Assembly (NCBI GenBank): GCA_946409675.1 | Contig: CAMJXI010000025.1 | Coordinates: 1-11,193 of the forward strand | Length of the DNA: 11,193 bases | Reading direction: 5' to 3' | Source: an uncultured Lactobacillus sp. | Lineage (GTDB): Bacteria; Bacillota; Bacilli; Lactobacillales; Lactobacillaceae | Shown: positions 1 to 468 of the stretch, in pieces | Numbering within the stretch: the stretch's first letter is position 1 | Layout of the letters: the number at the start of each line of letters is the position of its first letter | Made by a program: the position numbers and the translations under genes | The notes under the pieces: model-generated | Told to the model about the DNA's origin: nothing | Databases searched by the model: none | What the model saw: the letters and a program-made list of their open reading frames with translations, nothing else

Positions 1-44
1 ATTTCCATTGGTGACTGGAGTTCAGACGTGTGCTCTTCCGATCT
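1..44. other. Illumina TruSeq-type adapter left on the contig end (artefact)
   Basis: Positions 11-44 match, base for base as I recall it, the 34-nt Illumina TruSeq index-side adapter (begins GTGACTGGAGTTCAG, ends CTCTTCCGATCT). The ten bases before it read AT plus TTCCATTG. In a library molecule the adapter is preceded by a primer ending in ...GAGAT and then the index, so TTCCATTG (3-10) is plausibly an 8-base index (reverse complement CAATGGAA). Genomic sequence starts at 45. Nothing in 1-44 should be annotated as organism DNA. Confidence 0.97.
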
Positions 45-468
45 CTTTAGGGAAACCAGAGATTTTCCAAGTTACGTGAGCCAAGATATCAACAGGGTTA
101 GCGGCAACAACGAAGATGCCGTCGAATCCTGATTCAACGATTGGTTCTACGATTGAACTTAAGATTCCTAAGTTCTTGTTTACAAGATCAAGTCTTGTTT
201 CACCTGGTTTTTGTGGGGCACCAGCAGTGATCACAACGATATCAGCATCTTTACAGTCTGAGTATTCAGCTGAGTAGAGGTTCTTTGGAGAAGTCCAAGG
301 AGTAGCATCGGCCAAATCGATAGCGTCACCCTTAGTCTTATCTTTAGCAACATCAATGATACCAAATTCTTGAGCGATTCCTTGTTGAACCATTGCAAAA
401 GCAAAGCTTGATCCAACGGCACCATCACCGACTAAAATAACTTTTTGTGGTTCTTCATTTCTAGACAT
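45..468 (-). CDS. ldh: L-lactate dehydrogenase, C-terminally truncated by the adapter junction
   Basis: This enzyme reduces pyruvate to L-lactate with NADH in the cytoplasm, the last step of lactic fermentation. About 141 genuine residues remain of a usual 310-325. Visible are the Rossmann loop VGDGAVGSS (13-21), the NAD-selecting Asp39 in GIIDV, the mobile-loop motif [11 protein letters not shown] with substrate-binding Arg92, and VAANP with Asn124. The catalytic His, near residue 179 in the family, and all of the C-terminal domain are missing. Codon 142 straddles the junction (one base genomic, two adapter). The open frame runs on to position 22 and adds IGRAHV, which is translated adapter, so this is an assembly-end truncation and not a pseudogene. 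The ATG at 468 follows a GAAAGGA-type ribosome binding site (481-487 on this strand). The gene is divergent from pth. Confidence 0.95.

Follow-up and report, generated by a model that had tools for sequence, protein, structure and literature searches.

The DNA analyzed in this study, referred to here as the window, is 11,193 bp long and constitutes the whole of one contig (C25) of a draft assembly (G000) that comprises 1,175,876 bp in 172 contigs and is 65.98% complete. Its left end carries the 5' part of ldh, the gene for L-lactate dehydrogenase (LDH), which on the minus strand runs directly into the letters of a sequencing adapter, and its right end cuts dusB without any adapter. Between the two, a 155-aa protein is encoded between an S4-like and an S1-like gene, which from its position we take to be a putative DivIC-type septum protein. 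The features relevant to the analysis are as follows:

1..2, minus strand: the two bases with which the constant adapter part begins after the sample index, assigned from their letters and from the register shared with longer tails
3..10, minus strand: the 8-base sample index, CAATGGAA, carried by 52 of the 54 index-side tails in the assembly that cross the index
11..44, minus strand: TruSeq index-side adapter, an exact match to the reference letters over 34/34 bases
22..468, minus strand: chimeric open frame of 148 aa, with LDH residues 1-141 genuine, residue 142 hybrid and then IGRAHV from the adapter (ORF translation and comparison with the protein P0242)
45..468, minus strand: ldh, genuine 5' part (matches restricted to the N-terminal portion of NCBIfam NF000824 and TIGR01771, and identity with P0242)
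45..96, no strand given: 52-bp stretch with 100% identity to C65:49-100 reversed, the start of the contig that bears the rest of ldh (sequence comparison)
5082-5549: the 155-aa protein, with no NCBIfam match at E 0.001
10586-11193: dusB, cut by the adapter-free right contig end (TIGR00737 positions 1-198 of 319, NCBIfam)

The reverse complement of positions 1-60 (that is, the minus strand read from 60 to 1) consists of ldh sequence up to ...ccctaaag, followed by the adapter AGATCGGAAGAGCACACGTCTGAACTCCAGTCAC, the index CAATGGAA and the two bases AT. In the TruSeq layout the adapter is followed by the index and then by a constant part, and longer tails elsewhere in the assembly continue in the same register as positions 1-2, as ...CAATGGAAATCTCG. 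The junction between genome and adapter lies at 44/45 or 43/44, because base 44 suits genome and adapter alike, the match to C65 extending to that base.

The open frame that crosses this junction begins with ATG at its 468 end and stops with TGA at 22-24. Its translation agreed with the original prediction, in which ldh is truncated and the frame reads on to add IGRAHV for a total of 148 aa, and the coordinates given there for the index-side adapter (11-44) and the index (3-10) were likewise right, as was the statement that the left end of the window is a contig end. Codon 142 (E) is a hybrid in which base 1 is genomic, base 2 suits both sources and base 3 is adapter; the true codon 142 is GAA and likewise encodes E, so that the residue is right here by coincidence, and exactly six residues of the protein are false. 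Positions 45-468 cover NF000824 positions 3-141 of 316, and the fragment scores below the whole-protein cut-offs of both families (180.8 versus 303.55 for TIGR01771 and 221.6 versus 339 for NF000824), as is to be expected since the contig end cuts the gene. The nearest named relatives of the encoded LDH are those of L. hamsteri (82%) and L. kitasatonis (81%), which would place the draft genome in the Lactobacillaceae.

The remainder of ldh on a second contig

When the full LDH of L. hamsteri was used as a probe, it was found at two places in the assembly: residues 1-142 on the contig of the window and residues 122-323 at the start of contig C65. At the left end of C65 the other TruSeq adapter occupies positions 1-48, the next 52 bases are identical to window positions 96-45, and LDH then follows to probe residue 323. 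Past the 52 shared bases C65 continues ldh as ...aaagaacgtgttattggt..., and it is there that the contig of the window diverges into adapter. The ldh junction was the one junction examined in this way, and for it the genome was found to continue normally elsewhere in the same assembly. In the first 651 bases of C65 (L329), the other half of ldh is seen to open into the second TruSeq adapter, with RPPRSTLFPYTTLFRS preceding PVDILAHV in frame; if a start codon is required, a possible TTG start inside ldh gives a frame of 196 aa.

The two parts adjoin in a relative. In G001, the sole genome of the same genus in a search of 40 relatives (one contig, 73% DNA identity), the part of the window matches 458365-459407 on the minus strand and the part of C65 matches 459358-460741 on the plus strand, so that they are adjacent with an overlap of 50 bases. 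An intact LDH of 324 aa (P0242), which is present on 42 contigs in the protein collection, agrees with the chimera at all of the first 142 residues (142/142) and with the C65 frame at 200 of 201 positions, the lone mismatch being adapter-encoded. The window copy of the NAD-dependent L-lactate dehydrogenase (NF000824/TIGR01771) is cut by the contig end, and its true continuation, which corresponds to that of P0242, lies on C65. The assembly carries the remainder of ldh on a different contig, and a single intact gene appears in it as two chimeric fragments, an N-terminal one of 148 aa ending in IGRAHV and a C-terminal one beginning with RPPRSTLFPYTTLFRS.

These findings bear directly on whether the 44 bases could be truly genomic, either as an insertion or as a synthetic construct, with IGRAHV as the natural C-terminus of a truncated LDH. 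An open frame that crosses the junction and is closed by a stop codon is compatible with such an origin, to which we nevertheless attach a vanishingly small probability given that the same 52 bases are followed by normal ldh on C65 and that an intact LDH is identical to both halves. The original prediction had named the adapter joined to ldh in genomic DNA as the outcome that would speak against an artefact; the continuation on C65 and the LDH matching both halves favored the artefact. Positions 1-44 of the window are confirmed to be leftover laboratory adapter and not bacterial DNA, an artefact without biological content.

Adapter tails across the draft assembly

It had also been proposed that the assembly was not fully screened, and an adapter search of the whole assembly bore this out, with 111 tails on 89 of the 172 contigs. 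The adapter-start 13-mer AGATCGGAAGAGC is present in 111 copies (55 forward and 56 reverse) and the full 44-base string, index included, in 48 copies, with 0 copies of the reversed control in each case, and the second TruSeq adapter of the pair was found as 47 exact 33-mers. All 111 exact 13-mers lie at contig ends and point outward, in tails of 13-88 bases, and 22 contigs carry adapter at both ends. Based on the fourteenth base, 58 tails are of the index-side type and 52 of the other-side type, with one too short to be assigned. Fifty-seven of the 111 tails stop short of showing the index, and the two crossing tails that do not carry CAATGGAA are each one base off it; this index pattern is the one expected of a single library with a single index. 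The longest index-side tails continue into the constant flow-cell part, ATCTCGTAT. A looser search, in which the first 19 bases of the index-side form were allowed as many as 2 mismatches, yielded 57 exact matches plus a single interior one with 2 mismatches (C9:8911-8929), which looks like a chance match, and the control gave 0. Besides the window, 120 contig-end stretches were inspected, 110 with a match to the 13-mer and ten without, and no adapter was seen in those ten match-free stretches, of which nine are left ends and one is the right end of C25. The longest tail by far, at 88 bases against 54 for the next longest, is at the right end of C76 (L262), where error-rich adapter runs to its end and is followed by an A run and further bases, as if one poor read had run off the adapter.

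That 111 contig ends share one adapter start and that the index is near-uniform argue further against a genomic insertion, as does a search of 396 further genomes of the family, none of which carries the exact adapter 34-mer. Taken with C65, the adjacency in G001 and P0242, that absence led us to rule out a genomic insertion with a natural C-terminus. In its exact adapter, index, order of parts, contig-end placement, presence of both adapters and near-uniform index, the material shares the features of Illumina TruSeq contamination and shows no difference in kind from it; what sets this assembly apart is the extent, which at 89 of 172 contigs is large, the 34-mer being carried by 0/396 of the other family genomes examined.

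Probable origin of the tails

We put at roughly 99% the probability that the 44 bases are an Illumina TruSeq-type adapter with index CAATGGAA, acquired via untrimmed read-through that split ldh from both sides. Nothing was found that speaks against an adapter origin. The most likely cause is read-through of short inserts, left untrimmed, at thin coverage. We infer that library inserts shorter than the read would have led to reads passing into adapter, with trimming absent or incomplete, and that where genuine coverage was thin the assembler may have extended a contig with such reads past the end of the insert and into adapter, until adapter words common to many reads would have halted the extension. 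Inside ldh this would have happened from both sides, with C25 extended from the right across 96-45 into the index-side adapter and C65 from the left into the other one. Supporting read-through is that the two adapters are near-equal in number, as expected if both reads of each pair contributed.

Read-through is supported, too, by the last genomic base at the 111 junctions, which shows a strong skew (A 10, C 29, G 55, T 17; P = 4e-13, against a background of 22% for G and 29% for A); no base skew was found at positions -2 to -5 before the adapter at the same 111 junctions. Passages of PMC3812280 describe an A shortage at read ends in AT-overhang (A-tailed) ligation libraries, and the A shortage at the junctions fits libraries of that kind because the bias reported there is the same. 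The G excess, however, is unlike what those passages report, which is a slight rise of C and T at read ends.

Four pairs of adapter-bearing ends overlap in their genomic parts, by 52, 19, 18 and 15 bases, compared with one of 8 in the reversed control and with one overlap of 10 or more in 2 of 20 shuffles. The 52-base overlap is that of ldh, and it raises the question of whether the assembly graph was split at this gene by one library molecule whose 52-bp insert lay between both adapters, an account that would leave the adapter origin unaffected. It is suggested by the arrangement of the 52 shared bases, which have the index-side adapter at one end and the other adapter at the opposite end, as would a single short insert. 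Against it are the three further pairs, which overlap by far fewer bases, and the presence in one of these short-overlap pairs of the index-side adapter on both sides. Overlaps of 15-19 bases would be too short for the usual assembly words, and so they fit independent molecules meeting at thin coverage. We consider a single molecule possible at ldh, although somewhat doubtful, and do not favor it for overlapping ends in general; the 52-base pair may stem from one short insert or from two molecules.

For 103 of the 111 ends no overlapping partner was found among the adapter-bearing ends, with 41-130 genomic bases (median 106) compared for each. Since partners were sought among adapter-bearing ends, thin coverage, or a partner that is absent or lies beyond the ends compared, is assumed for these 103. 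Returning to read-through at thin coverage, ten of the 111 tails contain mismatches and are longer than the others (median 51 versus 45 bases; P = 2e-4), a difference that fits k-mer stopping weakly, as a longer tail also offers more positions for errors. By reasoning from tail lengths, no consistent value was obtained for the assembly word length.

Adapter-encoded ends in public proteins and viral contigs

The original prediction had raised the possibility that proteins ending in IGRAHV are present in public databases, and such proteins do exist. Among the best 120 of 439 relatives of the chimera, eight have adapter-encoded C-termini, four of them IGRAHV, two DRKSVV and two IGRASCRERV. The search for relatives admits proteins of 0.55-1.75 times the query length (81-259 aa) and thereby excludes full-length LDHs, so that 8/120 is not a rate for all LDHs. 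In view of the four IGRAHV endings, the hexapeptide might be taken for a genuine motif that recurs at the C-terminus of LDHs, an idea that we regard as extremely improbable. The tail sits at differing depths of the protein, in fragments of 151, 152, 216 and 240 aa, and other fragments end in the other adapter readings listed above. In addition, all five IGRAHV tails, that of the window included, are preceded by E, Q or K, as is required by the frame, in which a codon NAG comes before ATCGGA. Adapter tails were not found among the best 120 of 4401 Hsp33 relatives, nor were adapter tails or adapter N-terminal peptides found among the best 120 of 1271 relatives of the C65 half, but both are weak controls, most of the former being near full length and the latter mostly full-length LDHs.

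In four of the adapter-tailed LDH fragments, which come from other sources (P0027, P0003, P0001 and P0083), the break is about a dozen residues or less from that of the window and lies in or beside the conserved SGFPKxRVIGSGT, with that of P0027 after the same residues, SGFPKE. This clustering may reflect selection, since the search, through its length limits and its ranking, favors this region.

It is quite likely that the six adapter-frame endings (IGRAHV, DRKSVV, IGRASCRERV and three others) make up a recurrent false motif in public proteins, which reaches the per-cent level among fragments of one enzyme (8 among the best 120 of 439), can yield two false records from one event and could be screened for without reads. 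Such records would be caught by a simple screen for these peptides, the same endings being present in public LDH fragments. In the draft assembly, genes at the adapter-bearing ends, on about half of the contigs, may carry false ends or be counted as truncated or missing. It is data quality alone that is affected, and nothing new is learned of lactate dehydrogenase or of the bacterium.

The kind of artefact is already well known; what is added here is the location of the missing half, a genome-wide count and the peptide signatures. Assemblies are screened for adapter contamination with VecScreen, according to parts of PMC7218494 and PMC10898089, and portions of the latter describe an older NCBI pipeline that ran VecScreen on submissions and a 2022 table that lists adaptors among the common contaminants. 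The closest likeness is to Steinegger and Salzberg 2020 (PMC7218494), sections of which describe contaminated contig DNA that is automatically translated into database proteins. The contaminant in those sections is foreign genomic DNA that gives whole false proteins, whereas here adapter gives a real protein a false end, and the single mention of adapters in them is as a target of VecScreen. In the full-text literature covered by our search, which excluded most subscription journals and figures, no paper containing any of the artefact peptides searched for was found.

Adapter was also present in at least 120 stretches of IMG/VR, and 120 of the 121 matches listed lie 300 bases or less from the end of a stretch, which is not always a contig end. 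The sole match listed beyond 300 bases is on a viral contig (L101, 3889-3922), where an exact adapter lies 1,257 bases from the end, possibly as the result of a misjoin through adapter.
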